Origin: Gammaproteobacteria bacterium
GTDB lineage: Bacteria > Pseudomonadota > Gammaproteobacteria > Thiohalomonadales > Thiohalomonadaceae
Assembly: GCA_026196275.1 (NCBI GenBank)
Contig: JAPHTQ010000009.1
Span: 70,092 to 109,596 of the forward strand
DNA length: 39,505 nt
Reading direction: 5' to 3'
In this document: positions 5,786-28,799 of the stretch, piece after piece
How the letters are laid out: every line of letters begins with the position of its first letter
How positions within the stretch are numbered: the first letter of the stretch is position 1
Made by a program: the position numbers and the translations under genes
Notes under the pieces: model-generated
Database searches by the model: none
What the model saw: only the letters and a program-made list of their open reading frames with translations
What the model was told of the DNA's origin: nothing

Positions 5786-5814
5786 GCTACAGCTCCTGCT
5801 GGATCTGGAAATCT

Positions 5815-5916
5815 CACCACAGAGGCACAGAGGTCGCAGAGGTAAAAACCTTTACAAGTAGCAGGGAGTGCGCTGGCTGGTTATTCACCCTCCGTGCTCT
5901 TTGTGTCTCTGTGGTG
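5815..5916. repeat. Foldback repeat, CACCACAGAG family, copy 1
   Basis: The left arm at 5815-5842 begins CACCACAGAGGCACAGAG and the right arm at 5888-5916 ends GTCTCTGTGGTG; the arms are imperfect inverted copies. It sits just upstream of the leuA start. Related arms occur at 6251-6285, 6783-6936, 21081-21150 and 25216-25334. Confidence 0.75.
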
Positions 5917-6776: not shown

Positions 6777-6782
6777 ATGGCT

Positions 6783-6936
6783 CACCGCAGAGGCGCAGAG
6801 TACGCAAAGATTATTAAAAGTGGTAAACCATCAGAATCGACGTCGCTCGCCTCAGGTATAGTTCGAGCAGCTATGCCCGGTCTTGTCTGAGGGATAGGAC
6901 AAGAAAAACCTTTGCGTACTTTGCGCCTTTGCGGTG
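6783..6936. repeat. Foldback repeat, CACCGCAGAG family, copy 2
   Basis: The left arm at 6783-6809 starts CACCGCAGAGGCGCAGAG and the right arm at 6910-6936 ends GCGCCTTTGCGGTG. The two 27-base arms differ at only three positions and enclose about 100 unrelated bases. It fills the gap between the convergent regulator and ABC permease genes. Confidence 0.75.
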
Positions 6937-6943
6937 AAAACAA

Positions 6944-10127: not shown

Positions 10128-10157
10128 TGTGCTTCCTTCGTCGATGTCGTAACGGCG

Positions 10158-10425
10158 CTAGTGGTCCATGCGGGAAATAATATCAGCCTCAGAGCCCCGC
10201 CAATGAGTCAAGGCAAGGCACGCTGCGCAGGGAATGGCAGGCCCCTTTCCAAGCAGCGTAACGCCGCATTGGCTCATTGGCGGGACTCCCTTCGGGCCGT
10301 TCCACAGGGCTCATCGGCGGTGTTGCACTCGCTTGAATTAGCTCGCTAGTCCTGCGCTCCTGCGCCTTGCCGATGAGCCTTGTGGAACGGCTGAGGCTGA
10401 CATTATTTCCCGCATGGACCACTAG
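10158..10425. repeat. 268-bp foldback element with 35-bp terminal inverted repeats
   Basis: The ends are inverted copies with one mismatch in 35: the left end (10158-10192) begins CTAGTGGTCCATGCGGG and the right end (10391-10425) ends CCCGCATGGACCACTAG. Inside are two more inverted repeats: CCCGCCAATGAG (10196-) with CTCATTGGCGGG (-10284), and GCCGTTCCACA (10296-) with TGTGGAACGGC (-10391). The left inner part is related in sequence to the core of the element at 15071-15230. No transposase is encoded; short open frames across it look spurious. It is probably a MITE-like or other non-autonomous repeat. No clear target duplication is seen. Confidence 0.75.
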
Positions 10426-10427
10426 GG

Positions 10428-11750
10428 TTAATCCGCTTCTGCCGTTGGCAGGCTCAGCGTTACACAGAGTCCGCCACCGGTGCGATTGTGGGCGTTCACG
10501 GTGCCGCCGTGGGCGGCCATCACCTGTCCGGTGATCGCCAGTCCCAGGCCGTAGCCGCCGCTGTCGCGGTCGCGCGCCTCGCCGATGCGGGTAAAGGGCT
10601 CGAACATCCTCTCCAGGGCCGTCTCCGGCACCCCTTCGCCGCGGTCACAGACCTGCAGCGTGAGCATGCCGCCACTGCCCGCCAGCGATACCTCCACCGT
10701 TGTGTCCTCTGCGGTGTAGCGTACCGCGTTGCGTACCACGTTTTCGATCGCCGCACGCAGCAATACGGGATCGCCTTTTACCATAAAGTCCTGGGACATC
10801 TCGAGCGTCACACGGCGTCCGTGGGCCTGTGCCTCAAAATCAGCATCACTGATGATGGCATGCAGCAACTCGCCCAGACTCAGCTCGCGCCGCTCCAGCA
10901 GCGACTGGCCCGACTCCAGCCGCGAGAGCGAGAGCAGGTTGGCGAGCAGCAACTCCAGCTCGTCCGCCTCCTTCTCCACCCGTGCCAGTGATTTAGCCGG
11001 CTCCGCACTGCGTTCGGCCAGCTCCAGGGCGATGCGCAGTCGCGCCAGCGGCGAGCGCAGCTCATGGGAGACATCGCGCAGCAGTCGACGCTGGCTCTCC
11101 AGCATCTCGCGCAGACGCTCGGCCATGATATCGAAATCGCGCCCCAGCGCGGCGACCTCGTCACCGCCGCGCCCCCCGACCCGTATGTTGAGATCACCGT
11201 CGGCCAGTGTTTGTGCGGCATGACGCAGGCGCCGTATCGGCCGGCTCAGCATCGCCGCCAGACCCAGACTCACCAGGGCACTGATCAGCAGGGCGAGGAT
11301 GAGACGTGTTGTCGGTGAGAGGGTGTGCAGACGTCCTGTATCGACCAGCGTGGCAAGAAAAAGTTTATTCCCCTCCAGCGCCAGCGGCGCCAGCACCAGG
11401 TAGCGGCCGCGTTCAAGACGCTGGCTACCCGCCTCGATGGGGACAAGCTGTGGCAGGCGTTGGTGCAACGCCGGGGGTAAGTGCTGGCGAAACAGCGGTT
11501 GACCCGCACCGTCGAGCAGCAGCACCGGCAGCCCTTCGTCACGGCGTATGCCGCGCAGCCAGCGGCGCAGTGCGTCATTATCGCCTTCCCGTAACAGAGC
11601 GGTGGCGGTTTCGGCATGCGCACCGAGCCAGTGTTCACTGCGCTCCAGCTGCCGATCGCCCAGCCCGCGCTCGCCGAAATACATCGCCGCGCCGAGCAGG
11701 ATCAGTGTCAGCCAGAAGGCAATGAAGATCTTGCCGAATAGAGAACCCAT
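10428..11750 (-). CDS. CpxA-like sensor histidine kinase
   Basis: This 440-residue inner-membrane kinase has a first membrane segment (about 7-26), a periplasmic sensor domain of about 120 residues, a second segment (about 148-168), a HAMP linker (170-222) and the DHp helix with phospho-acceptor His229 (RDVSHELRSPLAR). The ATPase domain follows with its N box (ENVVRNAVRY, about 336-345), G1 (CDRGEGVP), F box (MFEPFTRI) and G2 (GYGLGLAI). Layout and neighbour genes match CpxA. It starts 5 bases after the response-regulator stop codon, so the pair is one operon. The sensor domain does not give the ligand; in Cpx systems the signal is misfolded envelope protein, held off by CpxP. Confidence 0.92.
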   Translation of the reverse strand: MGSLFGKIFIAFWLTLILLGAAMYFGERGLGDRQLERSEHWLGAHAETATALLREGDNDALRRWLRGIRRDEGLPVLLLDGAGQPLFRQHLPPALHQRLPQLVPIEAGSQRLERGRYLVLAPLALEGNKLFLATLVDTGRLHTLSPTTRLILALLISALVSLGLAAMLSRPIRRLRHAAQTLADGDLNIRVGGRGGDEVAALGRDFDIMAERLREMLESQRRLLRDVSHELRSPLARLRIALELAERSAEPAKSLARVEKEADELELLLANLLSLSRLESGQSLLERRELSLGELLHAIISDADFEAQAHGRRVTLEMSQDFMVKGDPVLLRAAIENVVRNAVRYTAEDTTVEVSLAGSGGMLTLQVCDRGEGVPETALERMFEPFTRIGEARDRDSGGYGLGLAITGQVMAAHGGTVNAHNRTGGGLCVTLSLPTAEAD

Positions 11751-14663: not shown

Positions 14664-15071
14664 ATGGGGGCGCTATTCTCGCAGTCCTGGATGCGGCAGT
14701 TACAGTCAAAGTGGAATGCCACCAGCAGTATCGTCGAGCCGCTGCAAAAGGCGGGCTTTTCGGCACGTATCGGTTACGGTTTCAAGGGGGAGGGTGCTGC
14801 CCGCGGCATGTTGGTGATCGAGCATGGCCGGGCCATCGAGGCCGGTCCGTTCGATGGTGGCGAGCTGGACTGGGACCTGCGTGCCGAGCCACAGGAGTGG
14901 GCCAGCTGGATTGAGGAGGGATTTGGTCTGACCAAACTCGGTCCGGCGGTGGCCACCGGTGCCCTGGAGTTTGTCCGGGGTAACTATCGGCAGATGATCC
15001 GTAACGTATCGCTCAGCAATCCGTTCATGCAACACTTCGAACTGATGCATGAACTCGGTGTCGGGGATTAG
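14664..15071 (+). CDS. SCP2-like sterol/lipid-transfer domain protein (putative)
   Basis: This 135-residue protein has no signal peptide. Its middle and end resemble the SCP2 fold: a beta-strand core (ARGMLVIEHGRAIEAG, ELDWDLRAEPQEWASWI) followed by the helix-turn GPAVATGALEFVRGNYRQMI, comparable to the KLKVEGD-type segment of SCP2 proteins. Such proteins bind lipids or acyl-CoA; the call is by general resemblance only. A strong ribosome site (GGAGGGAGAG) precedes the ATG, and a TATAAT-like hexamer lies at 14623-14628. It is followed immediately by a foldback element. Confidence 0.6.
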   Translation: MGALFSQSWMRQLQSKWNATSSIVEPLQKAGFSARIGYGFKGEGAARGMLVIEHGRAIEAGPFDGGELDWDLRAEPQEWASWIEEGFGLTKLGPAVATGALEFVRGNYRQMIRNVSLSNPFMQHFELMHELGVGD

Positions 15072-15230
15072 GGGGCTGATCGGAATAATGTTGTCAACAT
15101 CGAGGTCGTGCCTGGGCCATCAATGCAAGGCGCGTTTCGCAGGTAATGGCAGGGTCCTTGCCAAGAGACGCAACACAGCAGTGATGGCCCAGGCGCGACC
15201 GAATGTAAATATTTATTTCGACCAGCCCCC
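15071..15230. repeat. 160-bp foldback element related to the one at 10158-10425
   Basis: The ends are imperfect inverted copies: GGGGGCTGATCGGAATAA on the left and TTATTTCGACCAGCCCCC on the right. An inner perfect pair, CCTGGGCCATCA (15111-15122) with TGATGGCCCAGG (15182-15193), encloses a core starting CAAGGCGCGTTTCGCAGG. That core aligns with CAAGGCACGCTGCGCAGG in the 10158 element, including the shared AATGGCAGG and CCAAG blocks. It fits exactly between the stop codons of two convergent genes. No protein is encoded. Confidence 0.7.
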
Positions 15231-16802
15231 TTAAGTCCGGAGTTTCGTCACCACTGCCTTGTAGAGGGTGTCCGTATCCGGCCAGCACGCGGTATCCACT
15301 TCCAGAGAGAGGGCCTGCTCCGCGGCAGTCAGCGGCTGCCAGCCGGCTAGCTGGTGCTCCAGTACCGCGAGGTCGGCATCGGAAGCCCCCTTTTTGCGGC
15401 TGACGATACGTCGGCGCAGTTCATTCGGGGTCGCCGTAAACTCCACTATCAGACAGGCGATACCCCGCTCCCTGGCCAGGCGGGTAAAGCACTGTCGCTG
15501 GGCATGATGCTGGCACACCGCATCGATGATCACCGGGTAGCCCGCCACCAATACCTTCTGTGCCAGTTGCGCCAGACGGTCGTAGGTGCGCTCACTGGCT
15601 GCGCTGCTGTAGATCCCCTCGCCGGGCGCCGCCCGGCCATCCGTTTCGGCCTGCAGGCCGAAGAGGCGTTTTCGCTCGACATCGGAGCGCAGGCGGATCG
15701 CCTCCAGCCGTTCAAGCAGCGGCCCGGTGAGGGTGGTCTTGCCCGAGGCGGACATGCCGCGGGCGATGATTACCGCCGGCCGGCCAGGGCGGGTATAGCC
15801 CTCGGCGAGCGCCAGATAGGCGGCAAACTCCTGCCGCGCCTCTTCGCGCCCGTTAGCCTCAAGCCCCGCCTGTGCACTGCGGATCGCCGCCACCTTTGTC
15901 CTGACCAGGGCACGGTATACCAGATAGAACGACAGCAGCTGCAGTGCCTCGTAGTCGCCGCTTATTTCCAGATAGTTATTGAGAAAGCGTTGCGCCAGTT
16001 GCGGCTGTTTGCGCGCCTGCAGATCCATTACCAGAAATGCCACCTCACTGATGACATCGATCCAGCGTAGTGCCGGGTTGAACTCAATGCCGTCAAAGGC
16101 CAGCGGCTCGTCGCCGATCCAGGCGAGATTACGCAGGTGCATGTCGCCGTGGCATTCGCGGATAAAGCCGTTCTCTTTGCGCTGCTTGAGCAGCGGGGTG
16201 AGCCGCTCGAATCGCTGACGGCTCCACTGCTCCAGGCCAGCGAGCTGCGTCTCATTTGCCGCAGTGCCGGCGTGTTCACGGATCTGGCTGAAGTTTTCCG
16301 CCACCGGCTGCCACACCTGTGCCGGGGTACCAAACTCGCTCTGCGCATCGGCCATCGCGACCCGCTGGTGGAATGCCGCGGCCATCCGCGCAAAGGCGTC
16401 GATATGGCGCTTCTCCAGCTGCCCCCTTGCCAGCATGCGATCCAGCTGTGCCTGCTGGGGAAAACGGCGCATCTTTACCGCGTACTCGATAACCTTTGTT
16501 TGCGCCCCCAGTTCGGGGTGTCGCGGCGTGCCGCCGATGGCAACCGTGTCCAGGTAGATGGCCGGGGCGAGGCGACGATTCAGCCGCAGCTCCTCATCAC
16601 AGTAAAAGCGCCGTTTTTCCAGGGTAGAGAAGTCGAGAAAACCGAGATTGAGCGGTTTTTTGATCTTGTAGACATAGTCGCCGGCCAGGATCACCCAGGA
16701 GATATGGGTTTCGATAAGCTGACAACGCTCCGCCGGGTGGGGGTAGGCCGCAGGGTCGAGCAGCGACTGGATGAGTGGCGGTAGCTGCGTGCTATTGCTC
16801 AT
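15231..16802 (-). CDS. Fused APH-type kinase and P-loop ATPase
   Basis: This is a 523-residue two-domain protein. The N-terminal part (about 30-300) is like the aminoglycoside/choline phosphotransferase fold, with the catalytic loop CHGDMHLRNLAW (His218, Asp220, Asn225) and a metal-binding Asp237 (AFDGIEFN). The C-terminal part (about 342-523) is a small-molecule kinase-like P-loop domain with GMSASGKT (349-356). Proteins of this layout are annotated as bifunctional aminoglycoside phosphotransferase/ATP-binding proteins; the true substrate is not known and need not be an antibiotic. It stands apart from its neighbours, with a foldback element right after its stop codon. Confidence 0.88.
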   Translation of the reverse strand: MSNSTQLPPLIQSLLDPAAYPHPAERCQLIETHISWVILAGDYVYKIKKPLNLGFLDFSTLEKRRFYCDEELRLNRRLAPAIYLDTVAIGGTPRHPELGAQTKVIEYAVKMRRFPQQAQLDRMLARGQLEKRHIDAFARMAAAFHQRVAMADAQSEFGTPAQVWQPVAENFSQIREHAGTAANETQLAGLEQWSRQRFERLTPLLKQRKENGFIRECHGDMHLRNLAWIGDEPLAFDGIEFNPALRWIDVISEVAFLVMDLQARKQPQLAQRFLNNYLEISGDYEALQLLSFYLVYRALVRTKVAAIRSAQAGLEANGREEARQEFAAYLALAEGYTRPGRPAVIIARGMSASGKTTLTGPLLERLEAIRLRSDVERKRLFGLQAETDGRAAPGEGIYSSAASERTYDRLAQLAQKVLVAGYPVIIDAVCQHHAQRQCFTRLARERGIACLIVEFTATPNELRRRIVSRKKGASDADLAVLEHQLAGWQPLTAAEQALSLEVDTACWPDTDTLYKAVVTKLRT

Positions 16803-18987: not shown

Positions 18988-19854
18988 ATGCATCAGAAAA
19001 GCAGCCCAACTCGCCCTGTCGAGCGGATTATCAACGGACGCGAGACCTCCGATGGCGCCGGGGTGCGCCTGCGACGCATCATCGGTGGTCCCGAACTCGA
19101 CAGCCTCGATCCCTTTCTGCTGCTTGATGCCTTCCGTTCCGATGACCCGGATGACTATATCGCCGGCTTTCCGCCACACCCCCACCGTGGTTTCGAGACC
19201 GTGACCTACCTGTTGGCAGGCACCATGCAGCACCGTGACAGTGCCGGCCACGAAGGGGTGCTGCGCGCCGGCGGTGTGCAGTGGATGACCGCCGGCAGCG
19301 GCATCGAGCACTCGGAGATGCCACAGCAGGAACAGGGTCTGCTATCGGGTTTCCAGCTCTGGGTTAACCTGCCGGCAGAGCAGAAGATGCAGCCGCCGCG
19401 CTACCAGGAGTTCGAGCCGGAGCAGATCCCGCTGGAGCGGCTCGACAACGGGACCGAGCTCCGCGTGGTGGCCGGTACCACCGCCGGCGGCACCCGCGGC
19501 CCGGTGGCGCAGATCGCCGCCCGGCCGATCTATTTCGACATCACGCTTCCTGCCGGCGCGGACTACGTTGAGGCAATACCAGAGGGACACAACGGCTTCG
19601 TCTACGTCATCGAGGCGGCGGTGGAGATCGGCGGGACCACCGTCCCCGCCGGCAGCCTGGCGGTGCTTGGTCCGGGTGAGCGGCTAGAGCTTCATGCGGG
19701 GCCGGGCAAGGCACGGCTGCTGCTCATCGCAGGCAAGCCGTTCGGTGAGCCGGTGGCCCGCTCCGGCCCCTTTGTGATGAACAGTCGCGAAGAGCTCCAG
19801 CAGGCCTATGATGACTACCGCCACGGAGAGTTCGGCAGGGTGGCAGGTTCATGA
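18988..19854 (+). CDS. Pirin family protein
   Basis: This 288-residue protein has two cupin barrels. The first carries the pirin metal site, HPHRGFETVTYLLAGTMQHR and GGVQWMTAGSGIEHSEMP, giving the His/His/His/Glu ligands. The second barrel lacks them, as is normal. Pirins are iron-binding, and some bacterial members oxidise quercetin or modulate enzymes; the role here is unknown. I use the ATG at 18988, which follows GGGGAAG at good distance; ATG at 18976 is possible, and an earlier start at 18907 would run across the promoter. Its stop codon overlaps the cytochrome b561 start (ATGA), so the two are coupled. Confidence 0.92.
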   Translation: MHQKSSPTRPVERIINGRETSDGAGVRLRRIIGGPELDSLDPFLLLDAFRSDDPDDYIAGFPPHPHRGFETVTYLLAGTMQHRDSAGHEGVLRAGGVQWMTAGSGIEHSEMPQQEQGLLSGFQLWVNLPAEQKMQPPRYQEFEPEQIPLERLDNGTELRVVAGTTAGGTRGPVAQIAARPIYFDITLPAGADYVEAIPEGHNGFVYVIEAAVEIGGTTVPAGSLAVLGPGERLELHAGPGKARLLLIAGKPFGEPVARSGPFVMNSREELQQAYDDYRHGEFGRVAGS

Positions 19855-21049: not shown

Positions 21050-21080
21050 GGTAACTACTCGCCCCACCTAAAAAATGATC

Positions 21081-21150
21081 TCACCGCAAAGACGCCAAGC
21101 GCGCAAAGAAAAGCAAGCCCTTTCTTGGCGAGCTTTGCGGCTTGGCGAGA
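21081..21150. repeat. Foldback repeat, CACCGCAAAG family, copy 3
   Basis: The left arm starts TCACCGCAAAGACGCCAAGC and the right arm ends TTTGCGGCTTGGCGAGA. The arms are imperfect inverted copies and close to the arms at 6783-6936. It lies in the gap after the YceI terminator, before a convergent gene. Confidence 0.6.
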
Positions 21151-25185: not shown

Positions 25186-25215
25186 GATGGATTAAAACCT
25201 TTGTTGAGTGATTTT

Positions 25216-25334
25216 CACCACAGAGACGCGGAGGACACAGAGGCTGGAAATGCGATGCGATATCGTTAAATCAAGACGAGTCCCCGCTGCTTCGCAAGGG
25301 CCTGTGCTCTGTGTACTCTGCGACTCCGTGGTGA
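25216..25334. repeat. Foldback repeat, CACCACAGAG family, copy 4
   Basis: The left arm begins CACCACAGAGACGCGGAGG and the right arm ends CTCTGCGACTCCGTGGTGA. The copy lies just upstream of the thioredoxin-fold gene and marks the edge of the accessory region that follows. Confidence 0.7.
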
Positions 25335-25450
25335 GCATTAGATGGGGTTACACACGCCGGGTCTCAATAGGGTACCTGATTTCATTGGAGGAGTGGCAGG
25401 GAAAGCAGGCCAAGTCTCAAGGCGTGAAGAATAGCTGAGCAGTGGAACTG

Positions 25451-28662: not shown

Positions 28663-28799
28663 GTAGGATGGGCAAAGGAGCGAGAGCGACGTGCCCATCA
28701 AACTCAGGTACGTGATGTAGGTTGGGCTGAGGGACGAAGCCCAACATTATCCTTCCATTGCGATGAGCGTTGGGTTTCGTTCCTCAACCCAACCTACGC
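28663..28799. repeat. Cluster of three short palindromic repeats
   Basis: GATGGGCA (28667-28674) pairs with TGCCCATC (28692-28699). A second unit, TGTAGGTTGGGCTGAGGGAC (28716-), recurs in inverted form at 28768-28799 (CGTAGGTTGGGTTGAGGAAC on the other strand). These are common intergenic repeat types in gammaproteobacteria. Confidence 0.65.

Follow-up and report, generated by a model that had tools for sequence, protein, structure and literature searches.

The repeat at 15071-15230 of the 39,505-nucleotide stretch analysed here, referred to below as the window, is a copy of a small non-coding, non-autonomous transposon (MITE) whose interior hairpin, a nearly fixed core held between arms that covary in pairs, recurs between different ends in the same genome and in other genomes. 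MITE families are usually distinguished by their ends, but here what is conserved is an interior fold, both among many end types and in more than one class of a phylum, and the persistence of the core while the ends differ suggests that evolution has preserved the fold of the core. The reading we favour, with confidence a little better than even, is that such MITEs move via their ends as DNA and that the hairpin module recurring across end types is kept by selection on its single-stranded fold, most likely as RNA.

The initial annotation had placed a foldback element at exactly these coordinates, and they are borne out: the 160-base element is enclosed by TTA/TTA, its terminal inverted repeats are imperfect and start GGGGGCTG, and the segment 15068-15240 has a predicted folding energy of -96 kcal/mol (z -10.3), with 0 of 200 shuffled sequences equally stable. 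Two convergent open frames border it, the TA of the left TTA together with the element's first G forming the TAG stop of ORF 14664-15071, for which there was no Pfam match, and the right TTA providing the TAA stop of the minus-strand ORF 15231-16802, which contains an AAA_33 domain. Neither a promoter-like or terminator-like site nor an intrinsic terminator (a stem-loop followed by a T run) was found in 14950-15350; the Rfam 15 scan of the window at gathering thresholds gave 0 matches, and a tRNA scan found nothing. The parts of the element are as follows:

15068-15070, unstranded: left target duplication TTA; TTA/TTA or TAA/TAA likewise surround L002-L005
15071-15100, plus strand: left terminal inverted repeat of family A, GGGGGCTGATCGGAATAATGTT...
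15104-15125, plus strand: 5' outer arm of the hairpin, from the predicted fold; it pairs in the core alignment
15126-15174, plus strand: conserved core, CAAGGCGC ... GCAAC, from the alignment with the 10158 core and the covariance-model match
15175-15201, plus strand: 3' outer arm of the hairpin, from the predicted fold and the core alignment
15202-15230, plus strand: right terminal inverted repeat, ...TTTCGACCAGCCCCC
15231-15233, unstranded: right target duplication TTA

A BLAST search of the genome itself with 15068-15240 returned five full copies of this form, family A (L001-L005, the query included), 87-100% identical over ends, arms and core, and all five are flanked by 3-bp TTA/TTA or TAA/TAA duplications. 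Four partial copies (L006, L009, L014, L026) retain end sequence without the core. Family A is the smaller, single-hairpin form of about 160 bp, and another genome, G005, has one too (L096). Terminal inverted repeats and a target site duplication are thus both present, and the elements (about 160 bp here, 268 bp for the larger form described below) are short, lack a transposase gene and are dispersed over several contigs. Since ends and arms are common to its copies, family A is at the family level an ordinary MITE family, as the initial annotation had anticipated for the case of copies sharing their arms; that description holds inside L001-L005 and fails across families, where the core sits between other ends.

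The related foldback element of the window, at 10158, turned out to hold two cores, inverted relative to each other, rather than one. The core had been proposed to be common to the two elements, and 10208-10271 and 15120-15183 indeed align over 64 nt without gaps at 77%. The outer arms, described at the outset as unrelated, are so between these two elements but not among the family A copies. The 10150-10430 segment folds at -186.7 kcal/mol (z -15.5; 0 of 200 shuffles equally stable), and its ends, CTAGTGGTCCATGCGG, define family B, which has 3 full copies in the genome:

10158-10425, plus strand: twin-hairpin family B element, 268 bp with CTAG ends; terminal repeat, hairpin 1, CCCTTCGGG, inverted hairpin 2, terminal repeat
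10204-10278, plus strand: family B core hairpin 1 (C83:80295-80369, 85.6 bits; a copy on which the model was trained)
10288-10296, plus strand: family B central mini-hairpin CCCTTCGGG
10306-10379, minus strand: family B core hairpin 2, inverted (C83:80397-80470, 70.6 bits; likewise used to train the model)

Two further repeats were observed in the window. A second repeat family, CTCACCGCAGAGGCGCAGAGTACGCAAAGA, occurs on either strand, some copies forming inverted pairs, at 5813-5842, 6781-6815, 6904-6937, 21080-21109, 25214-25243 and 25307-25336, and a short foldback, GTAGGTTGGGCTGAGGGACGAAGCCCAAC, lies at 28717-28797 with arms that are 90% complementary.

The same BLAST search gave many further matches beginning at query position 57 and ending at 98-121, that is, the core and little more, several of them at contig ends, as expected of repeats that break an assembly. 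These copies carry the ends CTAGTGTAGTGTTTCATAC, CTAGTGTAGTGTCGCGG and GGGAACCTCTGAACAAG; later searches added family B, CTAGTGTACTGCACCGC and a CGAGGCAAGCCCTGCCC type, so that with family A included the core is found in about seven end types within one 2.54 Mb genome. The 10158 element was absent from the list that the 15071 element returned, and such repeats may therefore go unrecognised as members of one superfamily. A covariance model built from 20 cores of the genome, the 15071 copy among them, matched the latter at C83:85207-85281 (window 15116-15190; 81.4 bits, E 2.8e-26) and, with scoring confined to 150 of 1986 first-look candidates, gave at least 53 matches in the genome with an E-value of 0.1 or lower. 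The model, whose E-values the tool itself describes as rough, further found the core in 20 of 56 relatives at E up to 0.01 and in 126 of 369 genomes of a class sample at E up to 1e-4, the genome itself being counted in both, and in 101 of 398 genomes of a phylum sample, 46 from the window's class and 55 from other classes, 39 of the latter belonging to one family. A structure model thus reveals a superfamily in about a third of the class sample. BLAST with a further copy (L189) showed that plasmids of Azotobacter chroococcum, Pseudomonas aeruginosa and Halomonas carry it, the match in A. chroococcum NCIMB 8003 covering 19134-19402 of plasmid pAcX50f; the 10158 element had no match in plasmids, and neither the 15071 element nor L181 had one in phages. 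A pattern scan of genome contigs, with a pattern that was perhaps too strict, returned one gammaproteobacterial MAG only. Against Rfam 15, five relatives at E up to 1 matched only M23 (28 bits against a cut-off of 41.2) and Six3os1_1 (21 against 50), both below threshold; the weak M23 sRNA match covers positions 1591-1638 of L091, over the mini-hairpin and the start of hairpin 2.

Across these end types the usual order is terminal repeat, hairpin, a CCC-TNC-GGG mini-hairpin, an inverted second hairpin and terminal repeat. Core matches occur as inverted pairs, with a spacer of 27-30 nt in 49 of 53, and of 38 representatives delineated automatically, all below 86% similarity, the 37 kept measure 264-279 bp (264-272 bp in 35) although the search itself permitted about 220-365 bp. 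Read on the strand with T first, the mini-hairpin loop is TNC in 49 of the 53 pairs, with every base seen at N: the centre is CCC-TTC-GGG in 31 spacers, with TCC in 10, TGC in 7, TAC in 1 and TTT in 1, and 3 spacers are without such a centre. On that strand the centre corresponds to C(UNCG)G, an extra-stable RNA loop family, and on the other to C(GNA)G, a stable DNA triloop. In an alignment of 36 twin elements CAAGGC, GCAAC, CCCT.CGGG, GTTGC and GCCTTG are nearly fixed and the remainder is variable, with some arm letters recurring across end types; mean pairwise identity is 0.66-0.68 in the cores against 0.48 when shuffled, and 0.50, 0.45 and 0.49 in ends and arms against 0.45, 0.43 and 0.43. 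Whichever side a twin element is entered from, the first hairpin reads 5'-CAAGGC...GCAAC.

Several derivatives depart from this architecture. In L016 and L044, single-hairpin hybrids in the window's genome, each half derives from a different hairpin of a twin element and the halves meet within the core, which points to template switching or to recombination mediated by the core; L035 and L037 resemble plain single-hairpin derivatives. A short family A copy (L027/L028, C80:6787-6850) has both ends joined at CGG and no hairpin. In one genome, G010, multi-hairpin arrays (for instance GAATCCGCCGGGAGCGGATTC plus small hairpins) lie inside conserved cores or arms (L127-L129, L132, L135-L142), with an apparent GCA repeat at one junction, and the array-bearing longer forms recur at about 340, 391 and 442 bp, sizes that suggest amplified nested copies. 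Such arrays interrupt the hairpins in L127-L129, elements of recurring size, so spread does not strictly depend on an intact core, or else branching is tolerated by the fold. One and the same 47-bp remnant, in which two terminal repeats abut back to back, was seen between similar flanks in G010 (L131) and G016 (L143), genomes of one genus. The hairpin-less family A copy and the hairpin arrays nested inside these hairpins would both fit a hairpin unit that is itself a small mobile element inserting into the middle of unrelated MITEs, but L027 could equally have lost its hairpin by slippage between short repeats, elements of different end types hardly vary in length, and an inspection that was not systematic showed no hairpin standing alone between target duplications of its own; we regard this explanation as very improbable.

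Arms and ends pair with their own partners though their sequences differ widely, as two kinds of test demonstrate. In the first, 20 cores of the genome were aligned over a hairpin of 27 pairs, and 87.6% of cells were paired against 65.1% when shuffled, with 21 pairs changed on both sides and a covariation score of 0.623 against 0.215, a value reached in 0 of 500 shuffles and by no slid structure (at most 0.137). The initial annotation had proposed testing whether the arms covary in pairs around a fixed core, and across families they do: in 132 distinct sequences among 134 model-aligned hits, with CAAGGC/GCAAC nearly fixed, 89.1% of cells are paired against 62.4%, the covariation score is 0.664 against 0.186 and double-change cells number 891 against 262, values to be read with the alignment's lean towards the structure model to which it was fitted. 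The weak one of five measures was the number of pairs changed on both sides, 24 against 21.8, matched by 34 of 500 shuffles. The other kind of test, a comparison of duplex energies across the 37 twin elements, needs no cross-element alignment. Here the terminal stem pairs with its own partner at -53.2 kcal/mol against -13.6 with the partners of other elements (own best in 36 of 37), arm 1 at -33.7 against -16.1 (31 of 37) and arm 2 at -31.7 against -15.8 (26 of 37); for the short inner core stem the values are -11.5 and -7.9, and the own partner is best in only 7 of 37. Duplex energies were used because the arms contain bulges, for which a test with 18-nt windows was too crude (own best in 18 and 23 of 37 for the arms and 37 of 37 for the ends). 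Together, these data establish the conserved core with covarying arms as real.

Complementarity of this kind could also be kept without any function. Ordinary MITEs of common ancestry could have their arms held complementary by template switching at replication forks, the core being simply old shared sequence, and the hybrid hairpins L016 and L044, which show template switching or recombination, as well as matching changes at both ends, such as CA/TG in place of TA/TA around L138, speak for such a process. What such strand-neutral correction would not produce is the distribution of wobble pairs. Scoring all mismatches alike and reading on the CAAGGC strand, we counted 26 G.T against 6 A.C in the arms of hairpin 1 and 47 against 13 in those of hairpin 2, whereas the terminal stem, with 32 against 26, has no such bias; in the outer arms of 115 distinct model-aligned hits the counts are 106 and 27. 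The elements are related, so the counts are not independent and p-values drawn from them are optimistic. Hairpins 1 and 2 of a twin element occupy opposite strands, so the bias follows the orientation of each hairpin. Template-switch correction, like a double-stranded palindrome as such, would make no distinction between the strands and would give no G.T excess, which a single-stranded fold could. Nor would correction be expected to spare the CAA and AAC, which are conserved and unpaired, or to prefer the TNC loop, and it leaves the persistence of the core during arm divergence unexplained; we hold functionless descent to be unlikely, though not negligible. A transcription-linked C-to-T change on the coding-like strand could be the remaining non-selective cause of the G.T excess.

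We infer that the wobble bias instead reflects selection, and that the selected molecule is most likely RNA. RNA has the best tolerance of G.U, and it is the wobble bias together with the UNCG-type loop that leads us towards it. Counting wobble pairs by strand is also a simple way to ask, by computation, whether selection acts on repeats as single strands.

A single-stranded DNA target would share part of this signature. The initial annotation had suggested that the core is a recombination or nuclease target, and a hairpin recognized by a structure-specific enzyme (of Y1/RAYT type, a relaxase or an integrase), with one copy per strand providing a usable hairpin in either replication direction, would suit both the G.T bias and the TNC loop, which is GNA on the other strand. 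Y1_Tnp genes occur in 14 of 14 element-rich genomes against 6 of 9 genomes without hits, but Y1 genes are common anyway, and the 30 loci scanned of 48 Y1 matches gave, next to Y1/RAYT genes, one weak hairpin of 23.9 bits and two of 12-13 bits, which is not the arrangement that marks REPINs. The genome itself (G000) has Y1-type transposase-like genes at C7:20046-20381 and C73:8421-8753, and the core hairpin is absent from these loci (L211, L228). The target duplications, and an IS5 end that matches, instead suggest transposases of the DDE type, and we judge the single-stranded DNA target to be decidedly unlikely. We also considered integron attC sites, whose consensus has GTTRRRY / RYYYAAC boxes paired at the hairpin base, and rejected them on inspection of the alignments, CAAGGC and GCAAC not being such boxes.

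As to what moves the elements, simple flank tests detected TA/TA at 17 of the 38 twin representatives, another repeat at 3 and none at 18. IS630 elements target CTAG and duplicate TA, and elements of the CTAG type look like such targets. One IS630 element (L196 in G215, NF033545), which is divided between two frames, has ends of 33 bp that start with CTAGTAC, although its resemblance to the CTAGTACTC end type is weak and extends to those first seven letters only; family A, with its 3-bp TWA duplications, does not fit an IS630-derived MITE. An IS5 element (L247 in G141, NF033581) has ends GGGAAC(C/G)TCTGATCAAT, like the GGGAACCTCTGA end type, its two ends reading GGGAACGTCTGATCAAT and GGGAACCTCTGATCAAT, close to the GGGAACCTCTGAACAAG type. 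The ends of L247 and L196 and the TTA/TAA duplications of family A make it plausible, from sequence resemblance, that elements sharing this interior are moved by two or more transposase families.

Autonomous partners were sought in several ways. BLAST of the genome and, for the end sequences, of plasmids found no insertion sequence with family A ends; BLAST of the genome for families A and B gave no end pair at the spacing of an insertion sequence (40 of 53 candidates scored for family B); and end patterns, judged by eye, gave no such pair in G010 and G016 with up to 3 mismatches or in five other genomes with none, G737 having no match. DDE_3 and DDE_Tnp_1 had no match in the 88 contigs of the draft genome, IS630 DDE_3 was present in 2 of 13 genomes tested, and DDE_Tnp_1 was absent from 6 of 14 element-rich genomes. 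Among 39 DDE loci, L201 has a single hairpin of 36 bits about 170 nt from an IS630-like match, and the others have two weaker hairpins, of 20 bits within a stretch that looks coding (L246) and of 11.6 bits. Of three end sequences searched in plasmids, only one had matches, a 19-nt stretch that was identical in two records. MITE membership does not require an autonomous partner, which can be lost or unassembled.

In the model we propose, the element would move as DNA through its terminal inverted repeats, duplicating TTA, with the ends recognized as double-stranded DNA by whichever transposase fits, supplied in trans. The interior hairpin module would recur within several end types, mostly as an inverted pair around the CCC-TNC-GGG mini-hairpin, and transcription running into the element would yield an RNA hairpin whose single-stranded fold is under selection. 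RNA arriving from either side of a twin element would meet a CAAGGC-oriented hairpin first, which would make it a symmetric device. The fold may make insertions tolerable or be processed, candidate roles being processing, stabilisation and the softening of read-through. Flanking gene ends, by crude ORF calling over 72 elements, were 70 3' against 55 5' (p 0.21), a bias that is not significant, and a terminator role drawn from such a bias was rejected. Speaking against the model, a 475-aa frame that ends at the single-hairpin copy L002 (80-1507, plus strand) reads the strand opposite to CAAGGC.

A bolder form of the proposal, possible but in our view doubtful, is that the module has spread through the phylum in miniature transposons of different transposase families and is kept for an active transcript, a symmetric bidirectional RNA device inside selfish DNA. 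Should the fold indeed act as RNA, it would be relevant to the way in which small mobile elements come to be tolerated between genes.

The comparisons with known systems are, unless stated otherwise, by description. Correia- and RUP-type MITE families are defined by their ends, unlike the elements presented here, in which one interior fold is common to many end types. Both are named as IS630-derived MITEs (PMC2817692), and our elements are like IS630- and IS5-derived MITEs in being short, non-coding and dispersed, with terminal inverted repeats and TA or 3-bp duplications. REPIN/BIME repeats, which are RAYT-linked inverted REP pairs (PMC2817692; see also PMC3116915), likewise have two inverted hairpins at fixed spacing, one per strand orientation; the present elements differ in having terminal inverted repeats and target duplications, hairpins of about 100 nt and no clear link to the scanned Y1 loci. 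The consulted parts of the open-licence literature, a 2024 review of prokaryotic MITEs included, describe related phenomena (double-hairpin repeats, a tail-to-tail bias, a hairpin common to a MITE and an intron), and we found in them no description of one core common to different-ended MITEs across genomes. In pseudomonads, Pae-1 of P. aeruginosa is a predicted double-hairpin family (PMC2267715) and the R families of P. fluorescens consist of inverted repeats flanking a core (PMC2718517); they resemble the superfamily, in descriptive terms only, in the double hairpin or the repeat-flanked core. The MITE inside a group I intron of Thiomargarita is a long hairpin that recurs genome-wide (PMC4853749), as here with some copies in a larger direct-repeat/inverted-repeat unit, and differs in its link to the intron P9 region. 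Nearest of all is QMITE1 of Coxiella, which is transcribed, has terminal inverted repeats of 21-28 nt and for which its authors report no orthologues in other genomes (PMC5896051); as described rather than by sequence, it resembles the present elements in combining variable ends with a conserved core.
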